Assembly: GCF_003003355.1 (NCBI RefSeq)
Contig: NZ_PVTQ01000026.1
Span: forward strand, 1 to 37,520
Reading direction: 5' to 3'
From: Donghicola tyrosinivorans
GTDB taxonomy: Bacteria; Pseudomonadota; Alphaproteobacteria; Rhodobacterales; Rhodobacteraceae
Length of the DNA stretch: 37,520 nt
In this document: positions 592-12,003 of the stretch, one piece after another
Layout of the letters: each line of letters starts with the position of its first letter
Position numbering within the stretch: the first letter of the stretch is position 1
Notes under the pieces: model-generated
Database searches by the model: none
What the model was told of the DNA's origin: nothing
What the model saw: only the letters and a program-made list of their open reading frames with translations
Translations under genes and position numbers: made by a program

Positions 592-2859
592 TCAGCCGCA
601 CTTACTGTGGCCACAGCTGGGACAGGTCATGCAACCTTCGACCATGCGCATGCCGAACTGACCGCAGCTAGGGCAGGCTTTTCCACGAGGCTGGTCCAGA
701 TTGACAACTTGCTGGTTCGCGGTGGGGTCATTTTTCAGGCCCATGCCCTCGCCTTCCATGAAGCCGATCGAGACCAGATGGGTCTCTAGCGCGCCGCCGA
801 TCGCAGCAAGGATCGAGGGGATGTACTTGCCCTTGATCCACGCGCCGCCACGGGGGTCGAACACGGCCTTCAGCTCTTCGACCACAAAGCTCACGTCACC
901 ACCACGGCGGAACACAGCCGAGATCATGCGCGTCAGCGCAACGGTCCAGGCAAAGTGCTCCATGTTTTTCGAGTTGATGAAGACCTCGAACGGACGGCGA
1001 CGGCCGCCGACGATGATGTCGTTCACAGTCAGGTAGATCGCGTGCTCGCTATCGGGCCACTTCAGCTTGTAGGTGTTGCCTTCCAGCGTCTGGGGACGAT
1101 CCAGCGGCTCGGACAGGTAAACGACATCTGCGCCTTCATCCGCCTCGGGGGCCGCGTCGCTGTCTTCGCTGACCGACAGAACCGAGCCAGTGACATCGTT
1201 CGGACGGTAGGTGGTACAACCCTTACAGCCCTGATCCCACGCCTGCATGTAGACGTCTTTGAAGTCATCAAAGCTGATGTCTTCGGGGCAGTTGATGGTC
1301 TTGGAGATCGAACTGTCGATCCACTTCTGTGCAGCGGCCTGCATCTTGACGTGGGCAGAGGGCTCCAGCGTCTGAGCGTTCACGAAATAGTCGGGCAGCG
1401 CGGTGTCGCCCTTCTTTTCACGCCACAGTTGGACCGCGTAATCCACCACTTCTTCTTCAGTGCGGCTGCCGTCTTTTTGCAGAACCTTACGCTTGTAGGC
1501 ATAAGCAAAGACCGGCTCGATCCCAGAGCTGACGTTGCCCGCGTAAAGCGAAATGGTGCCAGTGGGTGCGATCGAGGTCAGCAGAGCATTGCGAATGCCG
1601 TGCTCTTTGATCTCGGCGCGGACGTCGTCGTCCATTTGCAGCATGTTGCCGCTGTTCAGGTAGGCATCCGCGTCAAACAGCGGGAAGGCACCCTTTTCTT
1701 TCGCCAGTTCGACCGAGGCAAGATAGGACGCGCGGGCGATCAGCTTCAGCCAAGCATCGGTCTGCGCGGCGGCCTCGTCGCTGCCGTATTTCAGGCCAAC
1801 CATCAGCAGCGCGTCAGCCAGACCGGTGACACCCAGACCGATGCGGCGCTTTTGTTCGGCTTCGCGGGCCTGCGCTTCCAGCGGGAAGCGGCTGGCGTCC
1901 ACAACGTTGTCCATCATGCGCACAGCGGTGGCGACCAGATCGGCCATCTTTTCTTCGTTCAGGACAGCGCCATCCTCAAACGCGTTGTCCACCAGACGCG
2001 CCATGTTGATCGAGCCCAGAAGGCATGCGCCATAGGGCGGCAGGGGCTGTTCACCGCAGGGGTTGGTGGCTGCGATGGTCTCGCAGTAGCCAAGGTTGTT
2101 CATCTGGTTGATGCGGTCGATAAAGATCACGCCCGGCTCGGCATAGTCGTAGGTCGACTTCATGATCTTGTTCCACAGATCACGGGCCTGAACGGTGTGG
2201 TAGATCTTGCCGTCAAACTGCAGATCCCAGCTACCGTCGGCCTTTACGGCCTCCATGAAGGCGTCGCTGATCAGAACCGAGACGTTGAACATGCGCAGAC
2301 GGGCCGAGTCCGACTTCGCGGTAATGAAGTCCTCGATATCGGGGTGATCACAGCGCATGGTGGCCATCATCGCGCCACGGCGGCTGCCAGCCGACATGAT
2401 GGTGCGGCACATGGCGTCCCAGACGTCCATGAACGACAGCGGGCCCGAGGCATCCGCTGCGACGCCCTTCACGTCCGCGCCCCGGGGACGGATGGTGCTG
2501 AAGTCATAGCCGATGCCGCCGCCCTGCTGCATGGTCAGGGCTGCCTCTTTCAGCATGTCGAAGATGCCAGCCATGCTGTCGGGGATCGTGCCCATAACAA
2601 AGCAGTTGAACAGTGTCACCGTGCGACCGGTGCCCGCGCCTGCGGTGATGCGGCCTGCGGGCAGGAATTTGAAATCTTCCAGCGCGCCGTAGAACTTTTC
2701 TTCCCACTTGGCCTGATCCTTTTCGACCACTGCCAGACTGCGGGCGATACGACGCCATGTGTCTTCGACGGTCTTGTCTTCGGGGGTGCCATCCGCATTC
2801 TTCAGACGGTACTTCATATCCCAAATTTGTTCGGCAATCGGAGCAGCAAAGCGGGTCAT
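592..2859 (-). CDS. nrdJ: class II (adenosylcobalamin-dependent) ribonucleotide reductase
   Basis: Reduces ribonucleotides to deoxyribonucleotides in the cytoplasm, using adenosylcobalamin to generate the thiyl radical, so it needs neither oxygen nor a separate radical subunit. The 755-residue protein has the conserved NPCGEQ loop near residue 266 (catalytic Cys and Glu), the glycine-rich QQGGGIGYDFS segment, and a C-terminal cysteine cluster (CPSCG...CMTCPSCG) expected to carry reducing equivalents or bind metal. An upstream ATG at 2988 is in frame. The ATG at 2859 is preferred because it follows GAGGAAGAAC and begins MTRFAAPIAEQIWD, where family homology starts. It is a lone gene. Its upstream region carries paired DnaA boxes and a weak NrdR-box-like motif. 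No cobalamin riboswitch was seen. Confidence 0.95.
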   Translation of the reverse strand: MTRFAAPIAEQIWDMKYRLKNADGTPEDKTVEDTWRRIARSLAVVEKDQAKWEEKFYGALEDFKFLPAGRITAGAGTGRTVTLFNCFVMGTIPDSMAGIFDMLKEAALTMQQGGGIGYDFSTIRPRGADVKGVAADASGPLSFMDVWDAMCRTIMSAGSRRGAMMATMRCDHPDIEDFITAKSDSARLRMFNVSVLISDAFMEAVKADGSWDLQFDGKIYHTVQARDLWNKIMKSTYDYAEPGVIFIDRINQMNNLGYCETIAATNPCGEQPLPPYGACLLGSINMARLVDNAFEDGAVLNEEKMADLVATAVRMMDNVVDASRFPLEAQAREAEQKRRIGLGVTGLADALLMVGLKYGSDEAAAQTDAWLKLIARASYLASVELAKEKGAFPLFDADAYLNSGNMLQMDDDVRAEIKEHGIRNALLTSIAPTGTISLYAGNVSSGIEPVFAYAYKRKVLQKDGSRTEEEVVDYAVQLWREKKGDTALPDYFVNAQTLEPSAHVKMQAAAQKWIDSSISKTINCPEDISFDDFKDVYMQAWDQGCKGCTTYRPNDVTGSVLSVSEDSDAAPEADEGADVVYLSEPLDRPQTLEGNTYKLKWPDSEHAIYLTVNDIIVGGRRRPFEVFINSKNMEHFAWTVALTRMISAVFRRGGDVSFVVEELKAVFDPRGGAWIKGKYIPSILAAIGGALETHLVSIGFMEGEGMGLKNDPTANQQVVNLDQPRGKACPSCGQFGMRMVEGCMTCPSCGHSKCG

Positions 2860-2954: not shown

Positions 2955-2970
2955 TCACTAAATATATGCG
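2955..2970. promoter_or_regulatory. weak NrdR-box-like motif upstream of nrdJ
   Basis: TCACTAAATATATGCG matches the left half of the NrdR-box consensus (ACACwATATATwGTGT) well but the right half poorly. Its centre lies about 31 bases, three helical turns, from the centre of the palindrome at 2979-3007, which is a typical spacing for paired NrdR boxes. NrdR is the usual repressor of bacterial nrd genes. The match is partial, so this is tentative. Confidence 0.3.
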
Positions 2971-2978
2971 GCAAATCG

Positions 2979-3007
2979 GGTTATGCACATATATGTTGTG
3001 GATAACC
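2979..3007. promoter_or_regulatory. inverted pair of DnaA boxes in a 29-base palindrome
   Basis: TTATGCACA at 2981-2989 on the plus strand and TTATCCACA at 3005-2997 on the minus strand both match the DnaA-box consensus TTATNCACA exactly. They face each other across 7 bases and are extended by GG...CC to form a 29-base palindrome with 10 of 14 pairs matching. The site is about 120-150 bases upstream of the nrdJ start. In E. coli, DnaA controls nrdAB through DnaA boxes near its promoter, so replication-linked control of this class II reductase is a reasonable inference. The rest of the gap, 3008-3270, shows nothing I can name. Confidence 0.6.
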
Positions 3008-3320: not shown

Positions 3321-3752
3321 ATGGCCGAGCCTATCAACCTGATAAAACTTTGCGTCGGTGCCGAAAGCGTCGAGGATCTGATCGAATGGCATCAGGATGC
3401 ACGCTCACGCGGGCCGGATGGGCGAATCCGGCACGTCACCCGCATGTGGCCCAAGAAGGAAGAGCAACTGTTGGACGGTGGCTCTCTGTTCTGGGTGATC
3501 AAGGGAATCGTTCTGGCGCGGCAAAAGATTCTGGCTCTGGATGAAGTCATCAGCGTCGACGGCGTGCGCCGCTGCGCCATCGTGCTGGACCCAGAGGTCA
3601 TCCGGACCGAGGCCATGCCCCGCCGCCCATTCCAAGGCTGGCGCTATTTGACCGAGAAAGACGCCCCGAAGGATCTGGCCGCAAGCCGCGCGAATGAAGA
3701 CGCCCTGCCCGCCAGCCTCTCTGCGGCTTTGGCAGAGATAGGCGTGGTTTAA
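3321..3752 (+). CDS. DUF1489 family protein
   Basis: A 143-residue cytoplasmic protein of unknown function. The opening, INLIKLCVGAESVEDLIEW, and the later segment with RHVTRMWPKK are typical of the DUF1489 family, found widely in alphaproteobacteria. The start at 3321 is preferred over the in-frame ATG at 3297 because it follows AGGAAG at good spacing and family members begin a few residues before LIKLCVG. The upstream ATG would also overlap the -10 of the candidate promoter. It is followed in the same direction by a DsbA-family gene after 76 bases. No catalytic motif is recognisable. Confidence 0.85.
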   Translation: MAEPINLIKLCVGAESVEDLIEWHQDARSRGPDGRIRHVTRMWPKKEEQLLDGGSLFWVIKGIVLARQKILALDEVISVDGVRRCAIVLDPEVIRTEAMPRRPFQGWRYLTEKDAPKDLAASRANEDALPASLSAALAEIGVV

Positions 3753-4473: not shown

Positions 4474-4482
4474 GGCTTAACC
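4468..4482. repeat. palindrome holding both convergent stop codons
   Basis: GGTTAAGGCTTAACC is a perfect 15-base palindrome. Each strand reads Gly-stop (GGT TAA), ending the DsbA-family gene on the plus strand and hisG on the minus strand. It is too short to be a convincing terminator on its own. Confidence 0.6.
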
Positions 4483-5175
4483 GCGCAGCTTCAGTTGGCG
4501 CAGCAGCGCCTCGCGGATATCGCGCTCTTCAGATGACAGCTTGATACCGCGGGCGCGGAACAAGGTTGCCTGCGACCGCAGCACCAGCGCATCCGAGAGG
4601 ATCTTCAAATGGTTGGCGCGCAGCGTTTCACCCGAACTGGTGATGTCTGCCACAGCCTCGGCGGTGAGGTTCTTGATGGTGCCTTCGGTCGCCCCTTGGC
4701 TGTCCACCAACTGGTAATCGGCCACCCCATGAAGTTGCAGGTATTCCCGCACCAGACGGTGGTACTTGGTGGCGATCCGCAGGCGGAAGCCATGCTTGGC
4801 GCGGAAGGCCGCAGCCACCGCATCCAGATCGTCCAGCGTATCCACGTCCACCCAGACCTGGGGCACGGCGATGATCAGATCGGCCTGACCAAAGCCAAGC
4901 TCGGCCAGTTCTTCGACACGCTGTTCCCACTGGCTCAGCTTTTCGCGGATCAGGTCCTGTCCGGTCACACCCAGATGGATGCGGCCCGCTGCCAGTTCGC
5001 GCGGGATTTCCCCTGCGGACAGCAGCACCAGTTCGACACCGTCGATCCCTTCAACCTTGCCCGCATATTCGCGGTCCGATCCGGTCCGCGACAGGGTCAC
5101 GCCCCGTTCAGCAAACCAGTCAAAGGTCTTTTCCATCAGACGCCCTTTGGAGGGCACACCGATTTTGATCGTCAT
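4477..5175 (-). CDS. hisG: ATP phosphoribosyltransferase catalytic subunit, short form
   Basis: Catalyses the first step of histidine biosynthesis, joining ATP and PRPP to form N1-phosphoribosyl-ATP. At 232 residues it is the short HisG-S form, which lacks the C-terminal ACT-like regulatory domain and works as a hetero-octamer with HisZ. It opens with IKIGVPSKGRLMEKT and contains the family segments ADLIIAVPQVWVD and LVDSQGATEGTIKNL. The ATG overlaps the hisZ stop by four bases, which suggests translational coupling and matched subunit amounts. It is the last gene of the hisS-hisZ-hisG operon. Confidence 0.95.
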   Translation of the reverse strand: MTIKIGVPSKGRLMEKTFDWFAERGVTLSRTGSDREYAGKVEGIDGVELVLLSAGEIPRELAAGRIHLGVTGQDLIREKLSQWEQRVEELAELGFGQADLIIAVPQVWVDVDTLDDLDAVAAAFRAKHGFRLRIATKYHRLVREYLQLHGVADYQLVDSQGATEGTIKNLTAEAVADITSSGETLRANHLKILSDALVLRSQATLFRARGIKLSSEERDIREALLRQLKLRG

Positions 5176-6257
5176 GACAGACCTCCCAGATCCAGCACCA
5201 GACCGGGGCGGATTACGCCGCCAACGGCGGGGATTGCACTGCCCTGCCCCAGTTGCGCGGTTAGCGCATCATAGCGCCCGCCCGTAGCTACAGGCGGCAA
5301 GTCGGGACGATCCGCCGCCACAAATCCGAACACGAAGCCATCGTAATATTCCATCGAGGTCCGGCCATAGTTGGCCTCGAACTCCAGCGTATCAACGTCG
5401 ATGCCCAAAGCCTTCAGCGCATCAATCCGATCGGACAACCGTTCAACCGCTTTGCTGATCGAAGGCATATCCACCGCCAGATCGCGTAGCTGCTCTAGCG
5501 CGAAGGGCGCGGTTTCCCGCACGGCCAGCAAGGCCTCAATGAGTTCCACTTGGTGGGCGCTTATAGGCGCCGCCTCGGCGTCCGCTTTCAGCGCGGCCAG
5601 ACGGTCCCGAATTTCACCTTCGCTACGCAGCCCGATCAACGGACCAGCATTGGCCATCGGGTCCGCTTGCGCCAGCAGAGCCTTGCGTGCCGCAGACAAC
5701 GGCACACGGCCCGCAAAGCGGTCCAACAGCGCACGGAACCGGCGCGGATGCCAGATGTGGCGCAGCAGCGCTGCCTTACGCTTGTCCGTGGTCTCCAGTC
5801 CCTGAACCGCAGCATGCAACAGGCCGATATCGCCCATCACTGCGCGCAGACCCATAGGCTTCAGCACCTCAGCGATACGGCCGAAGACCTCGGCCTCGGC
5901 GGCCACAGGGTTGGTACGATCGAAAATCTCGTAGCCGACCTGCAGGTATTCATTCGCCCGCTCGGGGTTTTCTTCCTGACGGCGGAAGACCTCGCCCGCA
6001 TAGGTATATCGGGCAGGCTCGGCCCCTTGGGCCATATGCATCTGAACCACAGGAACGGTGAAGTCAGGACGCATGAACATCTCGCCGCGGGCGGGATCAT
6101 AGGTCACATAGGCGCGCCCGCGGATGTCTTCGCCATAGAGGTCCAGCAGCGTGTCTGCGGGCAGCAGGAACGGCGGTTCAACCGGCACAGCGCCCAAAGC
6201 CTCAAAGCGGCTGCGCAGCTCTGCCGCCAGTTTACGTGGAGCGCTACGATCAATCAT
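5172..6257 (-). CDS. hisZ: ATP phosphoribosyltransferase regulatory subunit
   Basis: HisZ is a catalytically inactive paralogue of histidyl-tRNA synthetase that activates short-form HisG and carries histidine feedback control. The 361-residue protein keeps the class II synthetase-like core ([13 protein letters not shown], a motif-2-like stretch with [18 protein letters not shown], and ATGGRYDAL) but not the full synthetase length. It overlaps hisG by four bases at its end and hisS by four bases at its start, so all three are probably translated as a coupled unit. The direct adjacency to its parent family member hisS is notable and common in Rhodobacteraceae. Confidence 0.93.
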
Positions 6258-7882
6258 GAGTACAAATCCATAATTTCGCGCACCTTAGCGACCAATTCAC
6301 CGCGCGGCACTTCGTATTGCGAGGGGCGGTCTTTCCACTCTTCCAGCGTCGCTTCTTCGGCCAGCTTGGCACCAAGGATCAGGTCCTTGATCTGGATAAC
6401 GCCGCGCTCGGCCTCATCCCCGCCTTCGATAACGGCCACAGGGCTGTTGCGCTTGTCCGCGTACTTCAGCTGGTTGCCGAAGTTCTTGGGGTTTCCCAGA
6501 TAGACTTCGGCGCGAATGCCTGCCTCGCGCAACTCACGCACCATCAGCTGGTAATCGGCCATACGGGCCTTATCCATCACGGTCACGACCACAGGACCAC
6601 GGGCGCTCTCCTGACCGATCCGGCCCTTTGCCCGCAGCGCGGCCAGCAGACGGTCCACCCCGATCGAGACACCCGTCGCGGGCACGACCTGACCGGTAAA
6701 ACGCTTGACCAGATCGTCATAACGCCCGCCACCGGCGACCGAACCGAACTGCCGCTTACGGCCCTTTTCATCGAAAATCTCGAAGGTCAGTTCGGCCTCA
6801 TAAACCGGACCAGTGTAGTAGCCCAGACCACGAACCACCGAAGGATCAATGATGATCCGGTCAGAGCCATAGCCCTGCGCATCCAAGAGGTTCGCGATCT
6901 CTTCCAGCTCATCCACGCCCTCAGAGCCAATTTCAGAGGTCTCAACAATTTCACGCAAGACCGATACAGCGTAATCGTTCCAACTGGGTTCTCCTACGTC
7001 GCAATCGTCTACCAAGTGTAATAGATTCTGAGCTTCTGGCTCCAGATCATCGGAAGAATTTGCCGCTCGCGCGTCTTCCAAGCGGAGCATGAAATCGGCG
7101 TAGGCAGATGAGATCTTTTCCTTTGCACCGACAAAACGCATGATCTTTACGGCCTGCTCTGCCGCAAGACCCGCGCCTTTGGTGAAATCGCCACTGTCAT
7201 CCTTGCGACCTTCGCCAAGCAAGGCGCGCACGCCGTCTTCACCCAGACGGTCCAGTTTGTCGATGGCGCGCAGAACAATGCCGCGCTCTTCTTCAAACTT
7301 GCTCTCATCGCTGGGATCCAGAACGCCAGCAACTTCCATCACACCGTTCAGAACTTTGCGATTGTTGATCCGCACAATGTAATCGCCGCGGGGGATACCC
7401 ACACGTTCCAGCGTGTCAGACAGCATCGCGCAAATCTCGGCATCCGCTGCAACGCTAGGCGCACCAACAGTATCCGCATCACACTGATAGAACTGACGGA
7501 ATCGGCCCGGACCGGGCTTTTCGTTGCGCCAGACTGGCCCCATCGCGTAACGGCGATAAGGGGTCGGCAGATCGTTCCGGAACTGGGCATAGACACGGGC
7601 CAGAGGCGCCGTCATGTCATAGCGCAAAGCCACCCAGCCGCTGTCTTCCTCTTCCCAACCGAAAACACCTTCATTCGGGCGATCCACGTCCGGCAAGAAT
7701 TTCCCCAGCGCCTCAACAGTCTCGACCGCGCTGGTCTCAAGCGCGTCAAACCCATAGCGGCTGTAAACCTCGGCGATCTGCCGCAGCATTTCCTGACGCT
7801 CGGTCACCTCATGGCCGAAATAGTCACGAAAGCCTTTCGGGGTTTCGGCCTTGGGCCGGGGCTGTTTCTTGACTTTTGCCAT
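6254..7882 (-). CDS. hisS: histidine--tRNA ligase
   Basis: Charges tRNA-His with histidine. The class II synthetase signatures are visible: the motif 2 arginine region ([19 protein letters not shown]), the histidine-binding [11 protein letters not shown], and motif 3 ([13 protein letters not shown]). A C-terminal anticodon-binding domain follows. At 542 residues it is longer than the E. coli enzyme, with an extra acidic segment in the middle (around [12 protein letters not shown]), as in other alphaproteobacterial forms. The start at 7882 is preferred over an in-frame ATG at 7987 because CAGGAG lies eight bases upstream and the lysine-rich N-terminus ([11 protein letters not shown]) is typical. 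It is the first gene of the his operon. No histidine-rich attenuator peptide was found upstream. Confidence 0.95.
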
Positions 7883-7992
7883 GGGAACGCTCCTGATAAG
7901 GGGTCTTTTCGCGGCGCGGTGTAGCCTCTGATCGGCGCGGGGGCAAGCACGGCGAGACGCCAATCCACTTGGAATGTCAGGATTCAAGACCC

Positions 7993-8199
7993 ATGGACGA
8001 TCGAATTGAACGGCTCGAGATGCACGTTGCAGACCTCTTGCGCACCCAAGACGAGCTATCGGACGTCATTGCACGCCAATCAAACGAAATCGCGACCCTA
8101 ACGCGCCGCGTGGCGATGCTGATGGAACGGGAAGCCCAGCGCGAACGCGACGCGGGAATCGCGGAGATTGTCGGCGACGAACGTCCACCGCACTACTAA
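7993..8199 (+). CDS. slyX: SlyX family protein
   Basis: A 68-residue protein predicted to form a coiled coil over most of its length (heptads through [20 protein letters not shown] and onwards) and to end in PPHY, the conserved SlyX terminus. The family's function is unknown. It is divergent from hisS with 110 bases between starts. The start at 7993 fits the family length. An in-frame ATG at 7969 would add eight uncharacteristic residues. A weak AGGA lies upstream. Confidence 0.85.
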
Positions 8200-8217
8200 G
8201 GCAGAGGGAAACGCTAT

Positions 8218-8265
8218 GAGTATTTAAACAATAAGGAAGCCAACTTCTTTATTGCATAAATACTC
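8218..8265. terminator. AT-rich nested hairpin between slyX and dnaE
   Basis: GAGTATTTA at 8218-8226 pairs with TAAATACTC at 8257-8265, and inside it AATAA-GGAAG pairs with CTTC-TTTATT around CCAA. The result is a 48-base imperfect palindrome midway between two convergent stop codons. It probably acts as a bidirectional transcription end, but its low G+C is unusual for an intrinsic terminator. Confidence 0.5.
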
Positions 8266-8301
8266 ACTGCCGAAGCAGACCAAAGGCGCCGCCAGTCCCT
8301 A

Positions 8302-11300
8302 TTATGCGGCTTGCCGCGCCACGTTTTCATAGTGGCGCAGGTACTCAGACACGCTGTCGTCATCCAGTTCCTGCACATCCCAGATGCCATTCATGCTTTT
8401 CAGCGCGCCCATCACTTGTGGCGAGATCGCGAAGTTGGCCCCGAGATAGATTCGAACTTCATGTGGTGCGCCATCGATGTCGACGCCGATGAGGTTCACG
8501 AAGATATGCCCTTCAGCCATGCGCTTTCCCTTGGACTTCAGCGACTCGAGCAATTCACTAATCGCGGGGACAGCTTCGGCCTCGCGCAGGAAAATCTCGA
8601 GGCCGCTATTGCCGGTCACATCAGCCGCAATCGTGTCCAGAGGAGCCACACCGCGGGCAAGCAGCTTGAGCTGTTCGCTTTCCAATGTCGCCTCGACCGT
8701 GACGACTACGTTGGTGCCACTATCTAGAAACTCACGCGATTTTTCGAGTGTTTCAGAGAAGAGCGTCACCTCGTACTGACCAGTCGGATCGCTCAGCTGC
8801 ACAAAGGCGAAGCGATTGCCTTTGGCGGATTTGCGTTCTTGTCGGCTGGCGACAACACCTGCCAGCTTTGCGATCTGGGGGCCGTCGTGGACCTTTTTGG
8901 ACAGCTCATCCAAGGTCATGACCTTTTTCCGTTTCAGCACGCCGCGGTAATCATCCAGCGGGTGACCTGACAGGTAGAAACCGATCGCTTTGAATTCCTC
9001 GGCCAGACGCTCTGCCGGTAGCCAGTCGTTGCGGTTGGCAAGGCGCGGCTCCGGCAGGTCATCGCCGGCATCCCCGAAAAGCGAGACCTGATTGGAGGCA
9101 CGCTGTTCATGGATCGCCGAGGAATAGGCGACCAGTTGTTCCAGACTGTCAAAGACCCGCGCTCGGTTGCCATCCAGCTGGTCAAAGGCCCCTGCCCGCG
9201 CCAGCATTTCCAGTGGTCGTTTGCCGATACGTTTCAGATCACAGCGGCGGGCAAAGTCGTAGATGGTGCTGAAGGGCTTGCCGTCCCGTGCCTCTTCGAT
9301 CAGCCGCATCGCATCTGCGCCCACGTTCTTCAGCGCGCCCAGCGCATAGATTAGCTTGCCCTCGCCCACATCGAAGGTCGCCATCGAGCGGTTGACGCAT
9401 GGCGGCACGATCTCGATCCCCAGACCGCCCTTTTCTTTGGCCTTGCGGACTTCATCGGCGTAAACGGCCAGCTTTTCCGTCAGGTGCGAGTCGCAGTTCA
9501 TGACGCCTGCCATGAACTCGACCGGATGGTTCGCCTTTAGCCAAGCGGTCTGGTACGACACCACCGCATAGGCCGCCGCGTGGGATTTGTTAAAGCCGTA
9601 GTTGGCGAATTTTTCCAGCAGGTCGAAAACCTCGCCAGCTTTCTTCTCATCAACGCCGTTCTTCTTTGACCCTTCGGTAAACTTGGGGCGTTCGGCGTCC
9701 ATCGCCTCTTTGATCTTTTTACCCATTGCACGGCGCAGAAGGTCCGCGCCGCCAAGGCTATAACCCGCCATGACCTGAGCGATCTGCATCACCTGCTCCT
9801 GATAAACGATGATGCCCTGGGTCTCGGCCAGAATGTGGTCAATGGTGGGGTGGATGGATTCCAGCTTGCGCAGGCCGTGCTTGACCTCACAGTAGACGGG
9901 GATGTTCTCCATCGGGCCGGGACGGTAAAGGGCCACCAGCGCAACGATGTCTTCGATACAGGTGGGCTTCATGCGCTTGAGCGCGTCCATCATGCCCGAG
10001 CTTTCCACCTGGAACACGGCGACCGTCTTCGCATCGGCGTAAAGCTTGTAGGTCCGCTCATCGTCCAGCGGGATGGCGTTGATCTGGTTCTTGGCCCCTT
10101 CGGCGGGCACGTATAATTCCGTCCCGTCGGGGGCCACATGCAGATCACGGCCCCCTTTGTGGATCAGGTTCATGGCGTTCTGGATGACGGTCAGGGTCTT
10201 CAGACCCAGAAAGTCGAACTTCACCAGACCGGCCTGTTCCACCCATTTCATGTTGAACTGGGTCGCGGGCATGTCCGAGCGCGGATCCTGATAGAGCGGC
10301 ACCAGTTCATCCAGAGGACGGTCCCCGATCACCACACCTGCTGCGTGGGTCGAGGCGTTGCGCAGCAGGCCTTCGATCTGCTGGCCATAGGTCAGAAGGC
10401 GATCCACCACCTCTTCGTTGCGGGCCTCTTCGCGCAGGCGCGGCTCATCCAGCAGGGCCTGTTTGATCGAGACCGGCTTTACCCCTTCGACAGGGATCAT
10501 CTTGGACAGGCGGTCCACCTGACCGTAAGGCATTTGCAGCACGCGGCCTACGTCACGCACAGCGGCCTTGGACAGCAACGCACCGAAAGTGATGATCTGC
10601 GCCACCTTGTCCCGACCGTATTTCTCTTGCACGTATTGGATCACCTCTTCGCGGCGATCCATACAGAAGTCGATGTCGAAGTCAGGCATCGACACCCGTT
10701 CCGGGTTCAGAAAGCGTTCGAATAGCAGGCTGTAACGCAATGGATCAAGGTCGGTAATGGTCAGCACGTAAGCAACCAGCGAGCCTGCACCCGAACCACG
10801 GCCCGGACCCACAGGAATATCGTGGTCCTTGGCCCATTTGATAAAGTCCGCAACGATCAGGAAGTAACCGGGGAAACCCATGCCTTCGATGATGTCTAAC
10901 TCGAACTTCAGGCGTTCTTCGTATTCTTTCCGTGGCGCAACAGCTTCGATCACGGCCAGACGCTGGTCCAGACCTTCCCACGCCTGACGGCGCAGTTCCT
11001 CGACCTCATCGTCGGCGAATTTCGGCAGGATCGGTGCCCGCTTTTCGGCCTTGTAAGCGCAGCGCTTGGCGATCTCGACGGTATTTTCCAGTGCCTCGGG
11101 CAGATCGGCGAAGAGGGTCGCCATCTCTTGCGGAGACTTGAAGTAATGTTCGCGGGTCAGGCGGCGGCGCGGGTCCGCTTGGTCTACATAGGTCCCTTCG
11201 GCGATACAGATCAGCGCGTCATGGGCCTCATAGATTTCGGGTTTGGGGAAATAGACGTCATTGGTCGCCACCAAGGGCAGGTCCATGGCATAAGCCATTT

Positions 11301-11889
11301 CCACAAAGCCGCGCTCGGTCTGGCGTTCGTTCTGGGGCAAGCCATCCTCGGCAGGATGGCGCTGCAATTCCACATAAAGGCGGTCGCCGTAAATCTTGGC
11401 CAGCCGCTGCATCAGCGCCTCGGCGGCGGGACGCTGACCTGCCTGCAACAACATCCCCACAGGACCATCGGCCCCGCCAGTCAGACAGATCAGGTCTTCG
11501 GAATGCAGTTCCAGCTCATCCAACGTAACCCGAGGCAGCTCTCCGTCGCGCTTGAAATAAAGTGCGCTGTTCAGCTTCATCAGGTTCATATAGCCGGCCT
11601 CGGATTGGGCCAGCAGAACGATCGGTGCAGGTGGCTTGGGCCGTTCCCCGACGGCGGGTGCCATGTAAGCCACGGCGATCTGGATCCCGAGGATCGGCTG
11701 CACCCCCGCGCCCTTGGCGTATTCCGAAAACTCCAACGCGCAGAAGTTATTATTGGTGTCCGTGACCGCAACAGCGGGCATGCCCGCGGCCTCACAAAGA
11801 CCAGACAGTTTTTTGACCGTAACCGCTCCTTCCAGAAGGGAATATTCGGTATGGACGCGCAGGTGAATGAATCGGGGATCAGTGCTCAT
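8302..11889 (-). CDS. dnaE: DNA polymerase III subunit alpha
   Basis: The replicative polymerase of the chromosome. The 1195-residue protein begins with a PHP domain (FIHLRVHTEYSLLEGAV). It then has the C-family polymerase core with the catalytic aspartates in PDFDIDFCMDRR near residues 399-409 and the GPGRGSGAGSL loop just before it. A tandem helix-hairpin-helix region and an OB-fold near the C-terminus (AGVVASRQERKSAKGNRF onwards) complete the DnaE1 layout. The start at 11889 (MSTDPRFIHL) fits family alignments. An in-frame ATG at 11907 adds six residues, and neither has a strong ribosome site. It is a single gene, convergent with slyX and divergent from the TSUP gene. Confidence 0.96.
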   Translation of the reverse strand: MSTDPRFIHLRVHTEYSLLEGAVTVKKLSGLCEAAGMPAVAVTDTNNNFCALEFSEYAKGAGVQPILGIQIAVAYMAPAVGERPKPPAPIVLLAQSEAGYMNLMKLNSALYFKRDGELPRVTLDELELHSEDLICLTGGADGPVGMLLQAGQRPAAEALMQRLAKIYGDRLYVELQRHPAEDGLPQNERQTERGFVEMAYAMDLPLVATNDVYFPKPEIYEAHDALICIAEGTYVDQADPRRRLTREHYFKSPQEMATLFADLPEALENTVEIAKRCAYKAEKRAPILPKFADDEVEELRRQAWEGLDQRLAVIEAVAPRKEYEERLKFELDIIEGMGFPGYFLIVADFIKWAKDHDIPVGPGRGSGAGSLVAYVLTITDLDPLRYSLLFERFLNPERVSMPDFDIDFCMDRREEVIQYVQEKYGRDKVAQIITFGALLSKAAVRDVGRVLQMPYGQVDRLSKMIPVEGVKPVSIKQALLDEPRLREEARNEEVVDRLLTYGQQIEGLLRNASTHAAGVVIGDRPLDELVPLYQDPRSDMPATQFNMKWVEQAGLVKFDFLGLKTLTVIQNAMNLIHKGGRDLHVAPDGTELYVPAEGAKNQINAIPLDDERTYKLYADAKTVAVFQVESSGMMDALKRMKPTCIEDIVALVALYRPGPMENIPVYCEVKHGLRKLESIHPTIDHILAETQGIIVYQEQVMQIAQVMAGYSLGGADLLRRAMGKKIKEAMDAERPKFTEGSKKNGVDEKKAGEVFDLLEKFANYGFNKSHAAAYAVVSYQTAWLKANHPVEFMAGVMNCDSHLTEKLAVYADEVRKAKEKGGLGIEIVPPCVNRSMATFDVGEGKLIYALGALKNVGADAMRLIEEARDGKPFSTIYDFARRCDLKRIGKRPLEMLARAGAFDQLDGNRARVFDSLEQLVAYSSAIHEQRASNQVSLFGDAGDDLPEPRLANRNDWLPAERLAEEFKAIGFYLSGHPLDDYRGVLKRKKVMTLDELSKKVHDGPQIAKLAGVVASRQERKSAKGNRFAFVQLSDPTGQYEVTLFSETLEKSREFLDSGTNVVVTVEATLESEQLKLLARGVAPLDTIAADVTGNSGLEIFLREAEAVPAISELLESLKSKGKRMAEGHIFVNLIGVDIDGAPHEVRIYLGANFAISPQVMGALKSMNGIWDVQELDDDSVSEYLRHYENVARQAA

Positions 11890-12003
11890 GGGGCGAAGAT
11901 AGGCCATCCATCACATTCCCGCCAGCGCCCCTTTCATCCGTTGCTTGATCCGATCACGCAGACGTAGCTTGCGCGGAAGTGCCCTTCTTTTGACTGAGTC
12001 GTC

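Follow-up and report, generated by a model that had tools for sequence, protein, structure and literature searches.

The promoter of nrdJ, the gene of a class II ribonucleotide reductase (RNR) in Donghicola tyrosinivorans, on balance probably holds a composite operator for NrdR and DnaA. In the window, which is the whole stretch of 37,520 nucleotides analysed here, an imperfect palindrome at 2979-3007 carries two exact DnaA-box sequences and encloses NrdR box 1 of a tandem NrdR operator. The boxes, their positions, their recurrence in relatives, their phasing, and their specificity for one of two class II genes were established by computation. The window is a rearranged variant in which the DnaA boxes and a degenerate NrdR box are fused.

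The first DnaA-box sequence, TTATGCACA (2981-2989, plus strand; TGTGCATAA when read on the nrdJ strand), overlaps the 3' end of NrdR box 1, and the final five bases of the second, TTATCCACA (2997-3005, minus strand), are the CCACA that forms the left half-site of the same NrdR box. The two face each other across a gap of 7 bp, both within the palindrome, and lie 122-146 bp upstream of the nrdJ ATG (2859, minus strand). A preliminary description of this DNA had placed two perfect inverted DnaA boxes upstream of nrdJ and held a chance pair to be improbable. Both points stood: the boxes were exact at these coordinates, and in 40,000 dinucleotide shuffles of the 300-bp nrdJ upstream region at least one exact TTATNCACA appeared in 1.5%, two appeared in 0.01%, and a pair facing as in the window within 30 bp appeared in none. 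The facing-pair pattern, searched directly in the 4.68-Mb genome, occurred at one place, that of the window, and no other two of the genome's 43 TTATNCACA places were within 30 bp of each other. Since the backward-read control gave 38 against these 43, the word is without genome-wide enrichment, and with one mismatch allowed DnaA boxes in the whole window were at chance level (13 vs 12.6 expected). At least one consensus box TTATCCACA stands upstream of the gene (2997-3005). The direct double box of the E. coli type (2-3 bp gap) was not found in the window, where partners at 11-12 bp scored 1-3 of 9.

NrdR box 1 occupies 2986..3001 (minus strand; CCACAACATATATGTG on the nrdJ strand), and at a spacing of 31 bp NrdR box 2 occupies 2955..2970 (minus strand; CGCATATATTTAGTGA on the nrdJ strand). 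With a position weight matrix this pair scored about 18.1, the best among the 31- or 32-bp-spaced pairs in the window (next 13.3). The matrix was seeded with an NrdR consensus, and the upstream regions of nrdJ, 132 in number, served to refine it; in these same promoters, on which it was trained, tandem NrdR boxes exceeded the 99% level of resampled sequences in 100 of 132, and 82 of these 100 operators had a spacing of exactly 31 bp. In long-NrdJ promoters, on which the matrix was untrained and which were read for 30 of 61 genomes, the pair was present in 29 of 30 (26 of them at 31 bp), the thirtieth being L297, whose start is unplaced. In neither box of the window are the two conserved G-C positions (C, 8 bases, G) both present: the key positions read C,T in the degenerate box 1 and A,G in box 2, with one of two kept in each and two of four in all. 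Among the 100 operators all four key positions were present in 49, three in 47, and only two in 4, and the window is one of these last four. The weak NrdR-like site that had been described three helical turns away is real and is box 2, 31 bp off, but its partner is box 1, inside the palindrome. Because NrdR box 1 lies there, the overlap of the DnaA and NrdR sites is direct. The earlier suggestion that the two regulators could compete is consistent with this layout, an NrdR operator being present and both sets of sites being close enough for interference.

The nrdJ gene itself (592..2859, minus strand) encodes a 755-aa adenosylcobalamin-dependent (class II) reductase with TIGR02504, PF02867, PF00317, and TSCPD matches, and it scored 592.5 bits against TIGR02504 (cut-off 399.95). 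The genome encodes an NrdR gene (L002 1354-1815; TIGR00244, 166.6 bits, cut-off 124.65) with a Zn ribbon and an ATP cone, as well as a DnaA C-terminal domain (PF08299, 111.3 bits). A second, long class II NrdJ of the PRK07562 type (1213 aa) lies at G000:C1:323342-326983 (L273 443-4084); a tandem NrdR operator is present at this gene, and no exact DnaA box was found within 300 bp of it. The class I small subunit (PF00268) had no match in the genome, which, having two class II enzymes, therefore seems reliant on two B12-dependent reductases. A sigma-70 promoter scan of the nrdJ strand gave no match.

Some observations were made on the genes in passing. By eye, the window at 4477-11907 holds hisG-, hisZ-, and hisS-like genes and a DNA polymerase III alpha-like gene, all on the same strand as nrdJ; the polymerase-like gene (8302-11907, by eye) places a replication gene at a distance of 5.4 kb from nrdJ. 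The first match to the short NrdJ was limited to about residues 1-580 in 24 genomes; the open frames concerned were mostly 840-910 aa long, and in ten of these genomes the remainder (about 562-755) was a second piece, for example G075:C2:80326-82032 and 82246-82821. The second piece in G075 comes ~70 codons further, which suggests that the barrel and the TSCPD domain are separated by an insertion.

The wider comparison covered Rhodobacteraceae, the family indicated by the nearest named relatives, and all family counts refer to it. The 132 upstream regions came from 130 of 150 genomes (L003-L032, L062-L161) and from two congeners; the match in L151 starts at query residue 4. Of the remaining 20 genomes, 16 with partial, distant, or N-terminally cut matches were left out, and four (G025, G100, and G143, all full-length, and G086, matched from residue 20) made up a later set that stands outside the other counts and had neither an exact box (0/4) nor an NrdR pair above threshold (0/4). 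Of the 132 regions, 34 had an exact TTATNCACA no more than 300 bp from nrdJ, or 34/136 with the four later ones; the rate in the window's own genome predicts about 0.4 such regions in 132, and the shuffled-promoter rate (1.5%) about 2. In an unselected count of all 9-mers, the most frequent in the last 250 bp before nrdJ was TTATCCACA (27/132 on the nrdJ strand, 32/132 on either strand). Most of the family (98/132) had no exact box, and two exact boxes occurred in the window only among the 132 regions. In a set of 80 named loci, the best 80 of at least 592, of which 11 were marked as having a promoter that the first set also contained, the exact box was found in 31, e.g. in Ruegeria, Leisingera, Lutimaribacter, and Marivita. 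The exact-box state changed at least 21 times on a tree of 103 NrdJ proteins (the 80 named loci and 23 others), so the boxes come and go. The two kinds of class II gene differed: an exact DnaA box was present in 1 of 30 long-NrdJ promoters vs 9 of 28 short-nrdJ promoters of the same genomes (Fisher 0.004). In L240 and L006 (the same as L162), three DnaA-box-like 9-mers with a 12-bp period were seen upstream of nrdJ, for example TTGTCCACA, TTGTCCACA, TTTTCCACC in L006; these arrays recall those of origins.

Three congeners, with nrdJ 91-92% identical, gave a closer view. The NrdR pair aligned in 4/4 congeneric genomes, the boxes of the congeners being also 31 bp apart, and the three congeners retained all four key NrdR G-C positions. 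Neither DnaA box of the window aligned with a box in these three congeners; each of them has one exact TTATCCACA, on the strand opposite nrdJ and between both NrdR boxes. What had been put forward earlier, a link of DnaA boxes to class II nrdJ to be checked by conservation of both boxes and their spacing, was therefore borne out in part. The box sequence recurs in the family (34/132; 31/80) and a perfect box inside the operator recurs in the congeners, but the inverted pair is absent from the three congeners and its 7-bp spacing is not conserved.

The DnaA arrangement found most often in relatives is a direct double box, in which TTATCCACA and a degenerate partner stand 2-3 bp apart. Most relatives with a box have it overlapping the GTG start of a divergent DUF1489 gene, which in the window lies at 3321..3752 (plus strand; PF07370, 187.9 bits), with ATG 3321 taken by comparison with relatives and ATG 3297 also in frame. 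The DUF1489 motif was absent within 450 bp in 30 of 132 regions (in L025 falsely, by eye), and the start analysis was made on 99 of the remaining 102; the DnaA box was on the GTG start in 25 of these 99 mapped relatives, and not so in the window. At these 25 boxes the best 9-mer at a 2-3 bp gap matched 6.1/9 on average and reached at least 6 in 21/25. The same position gave a mean of 3.2/9 before ATG-start DUF1489 genes (at least 6 in 1/36) and 4.7/9 before GTG starts without a box (at least 6 in 9/28). Among offsets not sharing double-box positions none came near 6.1, the next best being 4.35, and in the named set the partner reached at least 6/9 in 23/27.

The double box is also phased to the NrdR operator. 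Its distance to NrdR box 1 was 24 or 25 bp in 16/24, and in 5/24 it was longer by one helical turn, at 35 or 36 bp; a distance of 24-26 bp was found in 1/36 of the ATG-start controls and in 9/28 of the GTG starts without a box. Across 89 tree rows, the primary and partner boxes were both present in 34 and both missing in 46, and one stood alone in 4 and 5. On supported branches, which offered five independent pairs only, primary and partner went together in 3.9/5 on average, with a median p of 0.125. A search of 150 whole genomes with the double-box pattern, which had been drawn after inspecting these promoters, returned 42 matches against 2 for the backward control, and 20 of the 42 were upstream of the short nrdJ. 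The pattern had 0 matches in the window's own genome and in the congener G034.

Other matches of this pattern, with gene names given by eye, were near a miaA-like gene (L255, L268), near a helix-turn-helix gene (L259, L262), and at a methionine-sulfoxide-reductase-like pair near contig ends (L265, L267, L269). Elsewhere in the window's genome, G000:C1:104784-105918 (L057-L059) holds TTATTCACA, TTATCCACA, TTATCCCCA, and TTATACACA on one strand over about 1.1 kb. Three of these four DnaA-box-like sites are within 54 bp, and the cluster, near a thrS-like gene (by eye), is a possible DnaA-binding or origin-like site.

The arrangement in the window, a DnaA box grown onto an NrdR half-site, was sought in 162 non-redundant promoters with an NrdR pair. 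A TTAT flank was present at 6/52 CCACA half-sites vs 0/596 others (Fisher 2e-7), and an AAAT flank at 4/52 CCACA half-sites vs 12/596 others (p 0.03). The six TTAT rows represent five lineages, L016 (the promoter of the named locus L180) and L232 both being Limimaricola; the extended half-sites, the window's own among them, belong to the window's genus, to Limimaricola and Litoreibacter, and to the lineages of L081 and L118. In the 132 set alone, TTAT stood at 4/55 half-sites and AAAT likewise at 4. The TTAT counts (6/52 vs 0/596) indicate that perfect DnaA boxes built from NrdR half-sites recur.

We propose that the palindrome would be the upstream half of a composite nrdJ operator. Its basic element would be the tandem NrdR operator, through which NrdR with dATP and ATP would repress class II nrdJ at high dATP. 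DnaA would be a second input, acting in most relatives with a box through the direct double box, which mostly lies upstream of NrdR box 1 at 24-25 or 35-36 bp. In the genus of the window the double box is absent, and perfect single DnaA boxes lie inside the NrdR operator: in the congeners a box between the NrdR boxes, in the window a facing pair that is fused with NrdR box 1. From the sequences we infer that DnaA and NrdR would each bind here and would be mutually exclusive. They should exclude each other because the CCACA of the window's DnaA box is itself the NrdR half-site. DnaA bound in the window would bar NrdR from box 1, and a single piece of DNA would thus be contested by replication-initiation activity and by dNTP feedback. 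The effect of DnaA may be antirepression or activation, a guess modelled on low DnaA-ATP at E. coli nrdAB. A more general reading is offered tentatively, and we hold it to be possible: a DnaA-NrdR switch in one stretch of DNA, where TTAT-extended CCACA would force mutual exclusion at a class II RNR and where, elsewhere, the phased double box would provide the coupling.

Could the conserved TTATCCACA of relatives be merely the DUF1489 translation start (GTG GAT AAR/AAC), its Shine-Dalgarno sequence passing for a second box? The box is the GTG start in 25/99 mapped starts, and third-base T is frequent near the start generally (by eye). GTG starts without a box are also phased (9/28) and partnered at 6/9 or better (9/28), so conservation may in part be translational or inherited. 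Yet ATG-start genes also need a ribosome-binding site and have such a partner in only 1/36, and the box keeps its distance to the NrdR boxes of nrdJ. In Marivita (L215, L229) the DUF1489 ATG lies further out and the double box is still in the gap (by eye); L225, a Marivita relative, has no DUF1489 within 1 kb and carries the box pair TTATCCACA GGG TTCTCCACA (by eye); Sulfitobacter L217 has two 8/9 boxes with a 3 bp gap before an ATG start (by eye). Since the double box is kept without overlap of the DUF1489 start, it is an element of its own with a fixed place relative to nrdJ, and the translational explanation is improbable. As the full cause of conservation, the DUF1489 start codon was ruled out by the ATG-start control and by Marivita. 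A preference for GAT over GAC at DUF1489 codon 2 was also considered and dropped, T-ending codons being common near the start anyway (by eye).

The chief competitor of the composite operator holds that the palindrome in the window is only NrdR box 1, that an A+T-rich flank made CCACA into TTATCCACA by chance, and that DnaA is inactive here. The alignment of the NrdR pair in 4/4 congeneric genomes, with DnaA boxes at non-homologous positions, fits this account, as do the lack of double-box geometry in the window pair (inverted, 7 bp; partners 1-3/9) and the AAAT flanks that are likewise common at CCACA half-sites (4/52). Of consensus single DnaA boxes in E. coli, only 13/32 were bound according to PMC11317965, which by analogy speaks against DnaA at the window pair. 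On the other side, TTAT is specific to CCACA half-sites (6/52 vs 0/596), an exact TTATCCACA lies in the same operator of three congeners too, two exact boxes are improbable in this nrdJ promoter, and the NrdR boxes of the window are degenerate; we regard an operator of NrdR alone as somewhat unlikely. Much further down the scale, and very unlikely in our judgement, the boxes would be a DnaA titration or reservoir site beside nrdJ with no transcriptional role. PMC11317965 reports DnaA-bound regions in E. coli that are not all known to be regulatory, e.g. a site within dnaN, but the recurrent distance and phase to the NrdR operator, the fusion to NrdR half-sites, and the near absence at long nrdJ all argue against such a site. 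That the palindrome is purely a DnaA pair was ruled out, as it encloses an NrdR box.

The RNRs under proposed DnaA control in Caulobacter crescentus and Bacillus subtilis are class I enzymes, and the matching of dNTP supply to replication was worked out for the class I RNR of E. coli. In the genome studied here such coupling would have to act on class II, because it has no PF00268 match and two class II enzymes. If our reading is true, the DnaA-NrdR switch would be a route that couples dNTP supply to replication in organisms living on class II alone. The finding tells which class II gene bears DnaA boxes and in what arrangement, and it supplies natural variants with a double box, a fused box, or no box. 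The coordination of dNTP synthesis with initiation in species without Hda is a question raised in the review PMC11853086.

Compared with known systems, the nrdJ promoter combines features described apart. In E. coli, class I nrdAB is known to be controlled by DnaA, and such control of RNR genes has been proposed for Caulobacter crescentus and Bacillus subtilis, as reviewed in PMC8203912; of these, Caulobacter crescentus is an alphaproteobacterial precedent, and for these two species the review presents the nucleotide switch as lacking detailed analysis. Like nrdJ here, E. coli nrdAB is an RNR locus with DnaA boxes upstream and with NrdR as a further regulator (PMC11317965, PMC8203912, PMC12176259). 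In vivo, E. coli DnaA is reported to bind mostly two boxes with a 2-3 bp gap (PMC11317965); the double box of E. coli nrdAB has this gap, and so do the nrdJ relatives, whereas the pair in the window is inverted with a 7 bp gap. Unlike E. coli class I nrdAB, nrdJ here is class II and B12-dependent, in a genome without a PF00268 match, and its DnaA boxes are phased to, or fused with, NrdR boxes.

Among NrdR systems, the class II nrdRJ promoter of S. coelicolor is like the window in having two NrdR boxes 31 bp apart upstream, with conserved G-C pairs at positions 9/18 and 40/49 (PMC9110341). Inverting one such G-C pair per box caused a close to 60-fold binding loss in that report (PMC9110341); the changes in the window differ from these, and of the four conserved G-C positions the window, unlike the nrdRJ boxes, retains only two. 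A text match in the literature search did not find the word DnaA in the S. coelicolor nrdRJ paper (PMC9110341), and among the matches listed, the titles and abstract openings of open-licence PMC papers named neither DnaA at a class II RNR nor NrdR sites at an RNR of Rhodobacterales. DnaA at class I nrdAB and NrdR at Streptomyces nrdJ are known; what appears to be new, as read from the sequences, is DnaA boxes joined with an NrdR-controlled class II nrdJ.
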